64,000 nucleotides of DNA from Microthyrium microscopicum. Lineage: Eukaryota > Ascomycota > Dothideomycetes > Microthyriales > Microthyriaceae. Under the pieces are notes generated by a model. The model did not search any database and was not told where the DNA came from. It saw only the letters and a program-made list of their open reading frames with translations. How positions within the stretch are numbered: the first letter of the stretch is position 1; every line of letters begins with the position of its first letter. A program made the position numbers and the translations under genes. The stretch covers positions 4,017,119 through 4,081,118 of the forward strand of contig MU004230.1 in NCBI GenBank assembly GCA_010405405.1. The letters are read 5' to 3'. Positions 3,582-9,026 of this stretch are shown one piece after another.

Positions 3582-5020
3582 ATGGCCGAGTCAAATGTTG
3601 ATGGCGAACTGTCAACACATGTTATCACCACGGTGACTACTGAGTTTGTCGACCACGTCATTTCAAATCTTGAAAAAGTCATCCAGAGTGGCAATCTAGC
3701 AGCTGAGGAGTCCAACCAAGTTGAGCGTAATGCTGCGACCGAGGCTTATCTACGCGACAGACTCCGGCCTTCGTTGGAAAGCATCATGGAACAGCCAGAC
3801 TTTAAAGAGGAAGCGCGAATGGCGCAAGGAATTAAACAATACAAGTCCTGGATCAAGAGCATGGCTCAGGTTTTCGAAGGTAAGCTTCCTGGCATAAGCA
3901 CAGATCACTCAAGATAGTGACAAAGGTGGAAGTTCTGCAATCGTGACATGTTGCTAATATATTCCAGATGTTGATTCCATGGTCGGTAAACACCTCCTTG
4001 CCCGAAAGCCAATTGAGGATGCGCGTATCAAGCGCATCCAGGAAATTGAGGATGCGCATACCAAGCGCATTCAGGAACTCGAGGATACACATACTAAGCG
4101 CATTGAGGAGCTCGTACAAGAGCCAGCAACATTCCCTGAATTCATGCAAAATCAGGAAAAGCGCAAGGATCTCAAGCGCAAGCGAGTCGAATCTCCAGAC
4201 CTTGAATCTCCAAAGCCAGGTAAATTTTCCCTTAATTGTTCACAACATCCGATGAGACCAAAATACCGTGCCTACCATCGAATGGCTACCATAGACTGCC
4301 CTTCTGATCAAGTGCTATGGTCCCCATCGCACTTGATATCGCTTTTTTGATAAAATTCTTTGGTAATTTCAAGCTAACAAAATATAGGTAATATACAATG
4401 TGTGCTCTACGCTTCGTCTCCAGCAAGCTAACAATATTCGAAGACCAGATTGACTACATCCTTGTCCGTCGTTTAGACCAAGTAACTGCCTCGAATTACT
4501 TCTCAGAGAACATTTTGGTCTGTGAAACCTTCGACTTGGAGAAAAGATTGACGGATTCTCTCAGCCAAGGCCGAACACTTTATCTTATTATCTACACAAA
4601 CGATGAACGGGGTACCGACTTCCAAGGTTACGTAAGTTCCGCGTCCGGTTCGCTCCAAGGTATAGCTGAAATTGACATTTTTGATGCTTCTAGGGCCGCC
4701 TGACCCGTCTTCCGGGACTGATCTCACCAACCAATCCAGCTCCACATTGGCGCACAGTGCTAAAGCCCTGGGATGAGTCATTCATTCGACCATTTCTTGT
4801 GGAATGGGTAGCAAAATTTCCTAGAGGGGTCTATCGTCCTTTTGACACTGCTCTACTGAAATCCATGGCACGTAACTTGAAACAAGATTTCAACAAAATC
4901 AGCTCCTTTCAGCAAATTCGAAGACATGATGGTGCGAATGTGGTGAAACTGTTGGATGAGGCAGCGGGAATAAAGACAGCAGGTAGAGCCACCAAGAAGA
5001 TGGTCAATGCAACCGGCTAG
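3582..5020 (+). CDS. Divergent YTH-like domain protein with coiled coil
   Basis: Not a family I can name with certainty. Exon 1 (3582-3879) joins exon 2 (from 3968) in phase at GAAG|GTAAGC..TTCCAG. Exon 2 encodes three 11-residue repeats (IEDAHTKRIQE type), a likely coiled coil, then a basic stretch (EKRKDLKRKRVE). The last two exons (up to 4631, then 4694-5020; donor GTAAGT) resemble a YTH fold, the RNA-binding domain that reads m6A: YILVRRL, then YLIIYTND, FQGYGRL (compare FQGFARL in YTHDC1), and PFLVEWVAKF (compare FKIDWICRREL). The second cage Trp is present; the first is replaced by an aliphatic residue. The exon 2 to exon 3 junction (donor after 4219) is unresolved: the best acceptor, at 4387, does not keep the frame. 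It is convergent with the related gene at 6063-7486. Confidence 0.6.
4012..4110 (+). repeat. Three 33 bp tandem units inside the coding region
   Basis: Units at 4012-4044, 4045-4077 and 4078-4110 each encode eleven residues of the form [I/L]ED-x-[H/R]-x-KRI-x-E. The 11-residue period fits a hendecad coiled coil rather than a heptad one. Differences between units are scattered, so this is an old or selected repeat, not a fresh slippage. Confidence 0.85.
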
Positions 5021-6062
5021 TAGCTTGATGGGAACTGAATTCTGGCGAGCGGCGGACAAATTGTAATGGAAGGCGTTGGAAGTAACGAAACGGGTGGTTT
5101 TCAATATCTTTATTCCTGGGGAATAAAGACTTTTTCATGAACAAGAATGATGGAGTTGCTGAGGCCTAGGTTCTCAAAGCTAGAGTACTCTATAATTTTG
5201 AAGCATCCAAACTCAAACTCAGTGTACATAATATTCAAAGTCAAGCTCAATAAACCGCCAAAAGTTTGTAGTCAATGTAACCCTTAGAATAATTCTGTAT
5301 AAGTCCCGAAAAGCTAAGTACTTTAGGTAGGTACTTACCAACCTTAGGTAACTTTTTACAAAGGGCCCAAATCCTCGCAGCCATTAAGTCTAAAAACAGC
5401 AGGCGATGAAGACCTGAAGACGATTTGCTTTTAATCTTCAATACCTTTCCAGTTCAAAGCGCAATGAAAAATTACATAACGTGTATGAAATTCGAGCCCA
5501 GCATGGCTGTTACAGATTTCTCGAGAACAACACTGATCATGAGTTCGTGATCACGCTGGCATATGCTGAACTGGATTGAATCAGACGATAAGAACTGCCT
5601 CCACAGTAATTGCATTAACTTGTTCATAGCTACGTTGAGTCCTCTTTTTGATGTCATTATCCTTGAAACGTCTTAGTATGAGACTAAAGGGTAGGTTCCT
5701 TAACAATCTCAGCAAATGTTTCTAGATATGTACCTAGGCTTGAATGCGTAGCTCTGGCGTCCATAAAACTCCATGGCAGCTATTGAGTGCTGTGTGAAAT
5801 ATAGACTGTGATGGGAGCCACAAGATACGATGGCACACCTTGCTAAACTGAGGTATGGCCCTATGGGAGATTCGGTAGAGTATTCAAGTATTCTAGACGT
5901 CTTAAAGCATGCTATGATAGCCATTGAATGCGATGGGAACCAACAGATGCGCTGGGGAGTTTAATTTGTTCTCATGATATGGTGGTATTGTTCAGGTACG
6001 AAGCATTTCTATTTTACCTACAGCTTCAGCATCAACAACCCGGCTTTGATACGGCAAATTCC
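5021..6062. other. Intergenic between convergent YTH-like genes
   Basis: About 1 kb of shared 3' flank. No supported gene: the minus-strand frames of 60-70 codons at 5247-5924 have no protein-like composition. Two loosely similar segments containing an AGC[T/C]ATTGA core occur near 5778 and 5919, too weak to call a repeat. Confidence 0.45.
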
Positions 6063-7486
6063 TTAGCGTTTTGCGATATTACACAACGCATTCACGATAA
6101 ATAGGCCTTCATCCTTTGAAATCACTTGTGATCTTCTCACATCTTCGACCTTTCTTCTTATTGCTCGTTCAAAGTCCACATATGACTTCTCGTTTCTGTT
6201 CCAGGTCAACTGCTTTCGTCCTGTCCAATCGACTCCGAGAACTTTGCAATTTTTGAGACCATTTCGCTCAGCTAAGTCCAGTGGTGTCCAGCTTGCTATT
6301 TCTGGCATACTGTCAAGAAGTGTCTGTCAATATGTTAGCGGACTGATTTGACTTAGATTCTGCTTGATGGCAATTTACTTACACAGGCATGAAACTCGAC
6401 TCCCTTCGAATTCGATGAGTAGAGAATAAGCCAGACTTTTTGATCGTTGTCGAAGATGGATCGAAGAGTTCCCTCGTCGGAGGACGGCAAGGCCAATGCA
6501 TGCTCGCGGAAATAACCTTCTGGCTGTATCGAAAATCGTCGCCGGAGCAAGACGTAGCGAAACTCATCTGTTAGGAAGTTAGTGTATAAGAAGATCAGCT
6601 ATCAGATCTCAGTAATTACCTGTCTTTTGAGAAGATGACCGCTCGCGCTCAAGAAATCTTGCCCGGTCGAAAGGTGAGCGAGACCGATGGCCATTGCTAC
6701 CCGAAGCAGGAGACCGTGATCGGCGACGGCTGTGAGAAGACTCTTCCGCACGACGAAGTTGATGATGGACTATAGCTGAACTATGCTCTGGCTTGCTAGC
6801 ATTTTCGTCCAACCATTGCGTCAGGCGATATCCCACACCCAGAAGAATCTCTTGAAAAGGCAGGAATTCCAAAGGAGAAGCAATGGGCGGAGATGAAGAT
6901 TTGCCTAGCTCAGTGATCAGCTCAGGCTTCGTCCAGAAATCGACACTTCGGGTAGCTTTCCAGGTAATCTTGAAGGGCTGACTATGTTTCCACTTCAGCT
7001 CTGGATGCCAGGAAGGAAGAGGGTTCTGCTGAGACGAGTATTGCGGAGCACTCTCCACGCGTGCCTTAAATATAATTAGATTTGAACATGCGTCTTGCGG
7101 AATGAAAATGAACTTACATAGCCTGGAAAGAACCCTCCGCCGTGACACAACTGGAAGAATATGATGTAAACTTGGCTATGCTCCCTAAAGGCTCGTCTGA
7201 GAATTCTCTCATCCTTGGTCATCAGAACGTAAATTCCGTCGCTCATTGACTTTTTCATGAAAGACGGGTGAATTGGCTTGTGGAGAAAGTAAGCAGTAGA
7301 AGAGCTTGTTGTTGGCTCACCAAGCGGAGGCAGCGTGGGTTTTGATTCGGCGGGATCGTCTAGGCTCAACGCCTCCACTTGAGTAGCTGGGGGATCGATA
7401 TCCATTTCGCTATCATTGGATATTGGCGTTTTGACTCTATCAGCCATCTGTAGAGGAACTATTGGCTTCGGCGAAAGGGCTGACAT
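6063..7486 (-). CDS. Protein with two divergent YTH-like domains and RS-rich linker
   Basis: Four exons: 7486-7118, 7064-6620, 6567-6383 and 6323-6063; all borders are GT..AG and keep the frame, giving 419 residues. Domain I (about 63-235) runs AYFLHKPI, then VYIIFFQ, FFPGYARV, and PFKITWKATRSVDF, which follows the YTHDC1 order FFLIKS / VILIFSV / FQGFARL / FKIDWICRRELPF. A linker at about 240-268 is rich in SR/RS pairs (HSRRRSRSP). Domain II (about 272-419) repeats the pattern: RYVLLRR, VWLILYSSN, VEFHAC, LGVDWTGRKQLTW. In both copies the second aromatic-cage Trp is kept, while the first is Tyr (domain I) or a small residue (domain II). YTH proteins bind N6-methyladenosine in RNA; whether these still do is open. 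It is a paralogue of the gene at 3582, tail to tail. Confidence 0.65.
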
Positions 7487-7811: not shown

Positions 7812-9026
7812 ATGGCCTCCGAAAACTCACCACCAGCCCTCCGCTTTGTCGGCCATCGCCATCTCGCCAACCGTCTCGTCCTCTCCACCCTCACCGGCCG
7901 GCCCATCCACGTCTCCAAAATACGCACCTCCTCCGTCTCCGCACCCGGTCTCGCGCCCCACGAAGTCTCCCTCCTCCGCCTCCTCGACGCCATCACCAAC
8001 GGCTCACGCATCGAGTTCAACGCCTCTGGTACCGCCTTCCTCTACAAACCCGGCCTCATCGCTGGCTCTGCGCCTGGCCTTGGCGCAGACGCATATGGAG
8101 TCATTCGCCATGAGATACCGGCGGCGTGTGAGCGAGGCCTAAGCTATTTTCTGATTCCGCTGTGTCTGCTGGCGCCGTTTGCGAAGAATAAAGTCAGTGT
8201 GCTTTTTGCTGGACCGGGTGTGATTACGAGCGCGACGGAGTTGGGGGACGTCAGTGTTGACACGGTGCGGACGGCAATTTTGCCATATTACACGAATTTT
8301 GGCATTTCGACGGATCGCGTGGAGATTCGGACTGTGCAGAGATCTTGTCCGGGGCCGGGGGGAAAGGGTGGCGCGGGAGAAGTTCAGGTTGTGTTTGCGC
8401 AGCAGGTGCGGTTACCGAAGACGATACATTTGCTGAATCGTGGCCGGGTGAAGAATATCAGGGGCGTGGCATATGCCGTTGGTGTGAGTGGGAGTAACAA
8501 TGCTAGGATGATTGAAGCTGCGAGAGGAGTGCTCAATAAACTGGTTCCTGATACGCGGATCTTCTCGGAAAACTCGTCAGCTGGATTCATCAAAGAGGTT
8601 ACTGGAGGCAGCGTTGGCAAGAGAAAGATGGGAATTGGATTTGGGCTAAGTCTTGTTGCCGAGACAAGTACTGGCAATCGCTACTCAGCGGACATGGTTT
8701 CTCCGACTGACGGAGGTGTTGCTCCTGAAGAGATTGGAAAGCAGGCTGCTCTACAGCTACTTGAAGTGATATCTCAAGGTGGTGTTGTAGGACAGACGGC
8801 AGCCCCGACGGTATTGATGCTCATGGCCATGGGACCAGAAGACGCCAGTCGAGTAGCACTGGGAAAAGATGTACTAGGTACGGAAGATATGGTTCAAATG
8901 GCCAGAGACTTTCGAGAGTTCGGGCTCAACGACTGGGGTCTTAGAGATCTTGAGGGTGAGGAGGTTGAGATTGTTGTTGTCATCAAAGGAAGCGGCGTGG
9001 GCAACGTAGGCAGAAAAATTGCCTGA
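7812..9026 (+). CDS. RCL1: RNA 3'-phosphate cyclase-like protein Rcl1
   Basis: Nucleolar protein of the U3 snoRNP/SSU processome, needed for the early cleavages that release 18S rRNA. It pairs with the GTPase Bms1. It belongs to the RNA 3'-terminal phosphate cyclase fold but lacks cyclase activity in yeast. The single intact 404-residue frame matches the family length. Family signatures are RFVGHRHLANRLVLSTLTGR at the N-terminus, PGLIAGS, RGLSYFLIPL, PGPGGKGGAGEV and FIKEVTGGS. The ATG at 7812 is the first in frame and sits at the family's usual start. There are no introns, and GC is high in the first 350 bp. Its start faces the YTH-like gene across 325 bp. Confidence 0.96.
   Translation: MASENSPPALRFVGHRHLANRLVLSTLTGRPIHVSKIRTSSVSAPGLAPHEVSLLRLLDAITNGSRIEFNASGTAFLYKPGLIAGSAPGLGADAYGVIRHEIPAACERGLSYFLIPLCLLAPFAKNKVSVLFAGPGVITSATELGDVSVDTVRTAILPYYTNFGISTDRVEIRTVQRSCPGPGGKGGAGEVQVVFAQQVRLPKTIHLLNRGRVKNIRGVAYAVGVSGSNNARMIEAARGVLNKLVPDTRIFSENSSAGFIKEVTGGSVGKRKMGIGFGLSLVAETSTGNRYSADMVSPTDGGVAPEEIGKQAALQLLEVISQGGVVGQTAAPTVLMLMAMGPEDASRVALGKDVLGTEDMVQMARDFREFGLNDWGLRDLEGEEVEIVVVIKGSGVGNVGRKIA

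Follow-up and report, generated by a model that had tools for sequence, protein, structure and literature searches.

YTH domains are known chiefly for the pocket with which they read N6-methyladenosine (m6A), and a pair of genes in the fungus Microthyrium microscopicum raises the question of what such domains do once they have diverged far from the described readers. The window analyzed here is a stretch of 64,000 nucleotides (contig MU004230.1, here called C1, positions 4017119-4081118). Near its beginning, two convergent genes on opposite strands lie tail to tail, with their stop codons 1042 bp apart, and together encode three YTH-like domains. Both genes proved to be members of a family that numbers at least ten genes, with 11 divergent domains found, all on C1 inside 0.67 Mb. 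The encoded proteins are probably YTH-fold RNA binders that work in the nucleus and are no longer classical m6A readers.

Gene layout and YTH homology of the three domains

The plus-strand gene (3582..5020, +) consists of four open exons (3582-3879, 3968-4219, 4444-4631, and 4694-5020) joined by GT-AG introns, and encodes 354 amino acids. Its product carries N-terminal charged repeats, then a basic stretch, and finally a single C-terminal YTH-like domain. The repeats (4015..4119, +), read from the sequence as three 11-residue units (EDARIKRIQEI/EDAHTKRIQEL/EDTHTKRIEEL), form a probable coiled coil as judged by inspection. The domain (4444..4984, +) shows the motifs FQGY^GRL...PHW...FLVEW, where the caret marks a phase-0 intron (4632-4693).

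The minus-strand gene (6063..7486, -) also has four open exons with GT-AG introns (7486-7118, 7064-6620, 6567-6383, and 6323-6063) and encodes 419 amino acids. Its first domain, D1 (6792..7300, -), occupies exons 1-2, with an intron (7117-7065) at FPGY^ARV and the motifs AYFL...VYIIFF...FFPGY^ARV...SW...FKITW. The second domain, D2 (6066..6567, -), occupies exons 3-4, with an intron (6382-6324) at FHAC^TLL and the motifs YVLL...VWLILY...FHAC^TLL...SW...LGVDW. The two are separated by a linker (6620..6740, -) rich in arginine/serine (RS) and serine/proline (SP) dipeptides. The splice sites of both genes were inferred from sequence alone. We also considered the minus locus as two separate genes; the D2 exon has no in-frame ATG ahead of the domain, which favors a single gene, and the gap between the two parts is 52 nt long and intron-like. 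A Pfam profile scan gave no RRM match in either window protein.

The minus protein matches the Pfam YTH profile (PF04146) at E 4.8e-17 across two stretches. D1 alone reaches E 5.2e-14 and 52.5 bits, over the curated cut-off of 22.1, and as a single query against the PDB it finds YTHDC2 at E 6e-5. D2 alone gives E 0.012 and 15.7 bits, under the same cut-off, and the plus protein has no direct Pfam YTH match. We complemented these searches with a leave-one-out test, in which a profile was built from the relatives of each domain without the domain itself and 1000 shuffles served as control. The plus domain scored 73.4 bits against 5.8 for its best shuffle, D2 scored 33.6 against 4.0, and D1 scored 139.7 against 12.0. 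All 11 divergent domains of the family scored far over their own shuffles, and nine of them singly match Pfam YTH at E<=0.01.

The same relationship appears in comparisons with canonical YTH domains. A profile made only from the two canonical domains of this genome placed D1 and five of the eight family members outside the window (which we call F1 to F8) clearly over their shuffles, with 13.2-36.3 bits for D1, F1, F2, F4, F5, and F7 (six of the 11), and gave moderate scores for F3 (16.5 against 10.6 for the shuffle) and F6 (9.6 against 5.2). Searched against the PDB, the family profile found CPSF30-YTH (3e-13), a CCCH zinc-finger protein (1e-12), YTHDC2 (2e-11), YTHDC1 (from 2e-10, nearly full length), and Mmi1 (from 6e-8, positions 2-118 of 150). 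A profile-profile comparison of ten divergent domains (without F8) with the canonical pair gave a probability of 98.2 and an E of 4.9e-14.

These comparisons make YTH homology well supported for all three window domains, the plus domain and D2 being tied to YTH because the family profile links them. The initial annotation had described a tail-to-tail pair at this place, with one YTH copy in the plus gene and two in the minus gene split by an RS-rich linker. The open frames and exons confirm the pair, and the layout of the minus gene is upheld, as is the single copy of the plus gene by its leave-one-out score. The homology itself draws support from the Pfam match of D1, the leave-one-out profiles, and an intron position common to all the domains, described below.

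One feature of the plus gene model deserves a separate description. The acceptor of its intron 2 (4220..4443, +), which sits right before the YTH-like domain, was set at 4443 because the reading frame is restored there, an acceptor at 4387 being out of frame; the choice leaves the domain unchanged. From sequence and frame, this intron can also be read as two back-to-back introns (4220-4387 and 4388-4443) of 168 and 56 nt, each with GCTAAC ahead of its AG, joined AG to GT with zero exon between them. This double structure resembles recursive splicing or a twin intron. The pair is flanked by what we take to be an aminopeptidase-like gene (535-1896) and an RCL1-like gene (7812-9026).

A divergent family on one contig

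We searched the whole genome (36.9 Mb, 20 contigs), which, judging from its introns and the RIP-like block described below, is probably that of a filamentous fungus. The Pfam YTH scan gave 12 matches at E up to 10 among the scored candidates, and seven family-protein queries added more. The family counts are lower bounds because the genome search scores the best candidates only, and D1, F4, F5, and F8 were not among the queries. Along C1 the genes are clustered in groups of two, one, three, and four: F1 (3357 kb, -) and F2 (3368 kb, -); F3 (3842 kb, +); F4 (3962 kb, -), F8 (3965.6 kb, +), and F5 (3967 kb, +); and finally F7 (4013.7 kb, -), F6 (4015 kb, -), and the window plus (4020.7-4022.1 kb, +) and minus (4023.2-4024.6 kb, -) genes. 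A scan of about 159 kb, overlaps counted, with a profile built without F8 matched this gene in two halves (7e-14 and 3e-7) and returned nothing below E 0.8 other than family members and the canonical genes.

The two canonical YTH genes lie on other contigs, C10 and C4, and combine an RRM, recognized by eye, with a YTH domain. The C4 gene was the sole match outside C1 among the scored candidates of the seven protein queries. An RS- or SP-rich stretch ahead of the domain also occurs in F1 and F3, and a weaker one in F2 and the plus gene. A viral origin was considered as well; a scan of viral contigs with F6 as the single query found no relative.

All 11 divergent domains share a phase-0 GT-AG intron of 50-66 nt at a homologous position, right after the FxG[YLC] codon, for which FHAC is the counterpart in D2. 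The peptides were joined by hand, and each of these introns is demanded by a stop or a change of frame. Both canonical genes are uninterrupted at this site, and their own break is further upstream, before VYLIF. In the tree, the 11 divergent domains split from five canonical YTHs (two of this genome and three from the PDB) with support of 100/99. The common intron and this split together support a single origin of the divergent set, which an unrooted tree cannot prove.

Within the family, the plus gene is sister to D2 (93/93, below our starring threshold), and each is the other's sole non-self genome match among the scored candidates (E 0.057 and E 0.234). D1 falls into a group with F4, F5, and F6 (86/93, likewise below that threshold). 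We compared this tree with two constrained ones, chosen after the tree had been seen, using the approximately unbiased (AU) test. Forcing D1 and D2 into one clade was 11.6 log units worse (AU p 0.014), which disfavors a simple internal duplication, and forcing the plus gene together with D1 was 13.0 log units worse (AU p 0.023), which disfavors that pairing too. D2 is a very long branch (3.13 changes per column); once it is removed from the tree, the long branch is that of the plus gene (2.84), whose placement is then no longer settled.

With D2 nearest to the plus gene and D1 in another subfamily, the minus gene looks like a fusion, which is the simplest story for its origin. The local duplication that the initial annotation had proposed for the pair thus stands in part: the kinship of D2 and the plus gene fits it, while D1 belongs with F4, F5, and F6, and a common clade of D1 and D2 is disfavored. 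Two further close pairs in the tree are F7 with F8 (96/94) and F5 with F6 (100/99). Since the neighbors on the contig are F8/F5 (within C1:3961-3968 kb) and F7/F6 (C1:4013-4015 kb), so that the closest kin lie crosswise, this pattern suggests that a two-gene unit was copied whole and its order changed.

Beside F5 lies an open frame of 1279 codons (stretch L017, 4235-8071, -) with many tandem repeats of a unit like 'LEGLKVNKKGQILNEDGDVIGELVDGD'.

The altered pocket and competing explanations

In YTHDC1, according to the description of its pocket in PMC6112328, the cage consists of W377, W428, and L439, the contacts that bond the base come from N363, N367, and S378, and R475 makes a cation-π contact to the next base. 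At the first cage position (W377), three of the 11 divergent domains have Trp (F1, F2, F3), four have Tyr, and four have Leu; none of the window domains has Trp there, D1 carrying Tyr and both the plus domain and D2 carrying Leu. The second cage Trp (W428) is present in 11 of 11, and the Trp of FxVxW is equally invariant. N367 of YTHDC1 corresponds to D401 of YTHDF1, the Asn/Asp contacting N1 of m6A, and its column holds neither N nor D in any of the 11 domains, the window residues being F, T, and Q. Arg at the R475 position is kept in one domain (D2) and lost in ten, and in the alignment the C-terminal RDG motif is present in none of the 11. Around the third cage residue (L439), the loop differs in length among the domains. 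Both canonical genes have Trp at the first cage place, Asp at N367, and Arg at R475. A reading of the proteins as m6A readers is weakened by these pocket changes, among them the loss of the N367 equivalent in 11 of 11 and the absence of the first cage Trp from the window domains. With N367 lost and the first cage Trp mostly lost, RNA would be bound in some way other than classical m6A reading.

The explanation that we favor is that divergent YTH genes have multiplied locally on one contig, alongside two ordinary YTH genes on other contigs, and that the minus gene arose when a member of the D1 subfamily was fused to a unit of RS linker plus domain from the subfamily of the plus gene. The proteins would retain the YTH fold and RNA binding, with the methyl pocket remodelled and the m6A contact gone, and so would bind RNA independently of m6A or with an altered specificity. 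The RS/basic arms and the coiled coils would place them in nuclear RNA-processing complexes, much as for Mmi1, with the coiled coils mediating assembly. We give this explanation, taken as a whole, an even chance of being right.

A bolder form of this explanation involves the m6A writers. We found a single MT-A70 match in the genome. In the Pezizomycotina, as far as the fungal survey in PMC10826363 describes them, MTA1 is the sole MT-A70 writer, and IME4 and KAR4 may be lost. Such a loss could have relaxed selection on m6A reading by the YTH copies. A lineage keeping only the METTL4-like writer MTA1 might then have made of YTH a set of nuclear RNA binders that are blind to m6A and multiply locally, each with its own remodelled pocket and perhaps its own preference for a base or modification, including a two-headed protein able to bind two RNA sites simultaneously. 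We put this extension forward tentatively and think it rather unlikely to hold in full.

An alternative is that the proteins are working readers of m6A, or of N6,2'-O-dimethyladenosine (m6Am), in which a Tyr that substitutes for the first Trp keeps the cage aromatic and the family forms a specialized set like the plant ECT proteins. The invariant second cage Trp and the aromatic residue at the first position in seven of 11 domains (Trp in three, Tyr in four) agree with such a role, as do the one writer match and the tolerance of the third cage position for Trp, Tyr, or Leu noted in the pocket description (PMC6112328). However, the N367 equivalent is gone from every domain and the R475 equivalent from ten, and four domains, the plus gene and D2 among them, have Leu at the first cage position. 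We consider working readers unlikely.

The lost RNA-contact positions could also be taken to mean that the YTH fold is a mere scaffold, which binds no RNA and serves protein contacts or dimerization together with the coiled coils, for example as a decoy for the partners of canonical readers. The plus gene, F2, and F3 have charged arms that look helical by eye, as does the open frame upstream of F8; such arms would suit this role, and divergent plant paralogues are discussed as possible competitors for m6A transcripts in the account of PMC10617740. Yet none of the 11 domains deviates at the second cage Trp or at the Trp of FxVxW, which suggests that the pocket side has been kept for something, and we find a scaffold role improbable.

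We also asked whether the genes are alive. The domain exons are open, and GT and AG are present at all 11 homologous introns. Nonsynonymous (dN) and synonymous (dS) divergence was computed for seven domain pairs. F5/F6 gave dN 0.34 and dS 1.36 (dN/dS about 0.25), F7/F8 gave 0.61 and 1.84, F1/F3 gave 0.76 and 2.56, F2/D1 gave 0.83 and 1.89, and D1/F4 gave 0.54 with dS saturated; D1/F6 (0.71 and 1.21) and plus/D2 (1.12 and 1.57) say little. Purifying selection is clear for F5/F6, the closest pair. We further looked for traces of repeat-induced point mutation (RIP). Over approximate gene spans, the ten family genes have TpA/ApT ratios of 0.51-0.66 and (CpA+TpG)/(ApC+GpT) ratios of 1.21-1.59, near those of three ordinary genes taken for comparison (0.53-0.67 and 1.21-1.33), which argues against RIP-driven decay. 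The idea that the genes are decaying duplicates without function, to which the very high divergence and the length of the D2 branch might point, is therefore very improbable given the open exons, the intact splice sites, the dN/dS of F5/F6, and the ten gene spans without a RIP signature, though the window does hold a strongly RIP-like block.

That block (window positions 27500-50500) is an AT-rich region of about 23 kb with 14-25% GC per kb and extreme RIP-like ratios (TpA/ApT 1.66, (CpA+TpG)/(ApC+GpT) 0.06), in which the longest open segment is at most 88 codons. It may represent a centromere or a repeat island mutated by RIP.

Several points weigh against the favored explanation of nuclear RNA binders with a remodelled pocket. 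The fold, the RNA binding, and the nuclear placement proposed here are deduced from the sequences. The profile of canonical domains alone misses the plus domain (3.2 against 4.3 for the shuffle), D2 (5.4 against 10.2), and F8 (2.6 against 4.7), and the one pair with clear purifying selection has a dS near saturation. Where loops vary in length, the alignment of the pocket is uncertain, and F1, F2, and F3, which retain Trp at the first cage position, could still be m6A readers. Clear RS/basic arms are limited to the minus gene and to F1 and F3; those of F2 and the plus gene are weaker, and ahead of the domain the sequence read of F4-F7 showed no RS-rich stretch. Finally, the argument from writer loss assumes that the fungus belongs to the Pezizomycotina.

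Known relatives and the meaning of the family

YTHDC1 has RS-rich surroundings, which the RS-rich stretches described here recall. Together with YTHDC2 and CPSF30-YTH, the other readers of DC type, it gives the best matches to the family profile, over nearly the whole domain, and shares with the family the second cage Trp and FxVxW. Unlike these readers, the family has lost N367 in all 11 domains, the first cage Trp in eight, and R475 in ten, lacks the RDG motif throughout, and includes in the minus gene a protein with two YTH-type domains.

The nearest described case is, by analogy, fission yeast Mmi1. It belongs to the YTH fold family, matches the family profile at E 6e-8, and, in the comparison given in PMC6112328, has Ala at N367 and no m6A-specific binding. 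The likeness rests on the loss of the N367 contact and not on the surface with which Mmi1 binds the determinant of selective removal (DSR) and recognizes U(U/C)AAAC, and most divergent domains here, unlike Mmi1, have also lost the first cage Trp. Among plants, ECT1, ECT9, and ECT11 offer another parallel, as YTH paralogues with fast divergence and changed function. In those proteins, as characterized in PMC10617740, the requirements for m6A binding are conserved and the change falls mainly in the disordered arms, whereas here the pocket itself has changed.

Fungal YTH genes have been grouped into YTH1 and PHO92 clades in the survey of PMC10826363, and both canonical genes described here probably belong with YTH1. 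The family, like these clades, consists of fungal YTH genes but differs in being divergent and clustered, and the two window proteins have no RRM match. As its methods are given, the survey curated 2,029 YTH sequences to 868, in 695 species, and dropped those of <300 or >1,000 amino acids (PMC10826363). With this length filter and curation, genes such as those described here may have been filtered out, or may lie undescribed in UniProt; some family members may also fall in the Pezizomycotina-only clade that the survey reports. Among the literature matches listed, with other fungal genomes not searched, we found no divergent multi-copy YTH family in fungi. The YTH domain itself is known, but none of those matches showed a set as large and divergent as this one, with a member that joins two domains by an RS linker.

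In the window the pair is visible alone, and its wider context, a family of at least ten genes, was beyond the view of the initial annotation. With its stepwise change of the first pocket residue from Trp to Tyr to Leu, the family provides a natural series of variants in which to ask what the YTH fold binds once m6A is no longer read. It also raises the question of what makes genes of this kind multiply in a lineage from which, going by what the survey in PMC10826363 says of the Pezizomycotina, the writers IME4 and KAR4 may have been lost.

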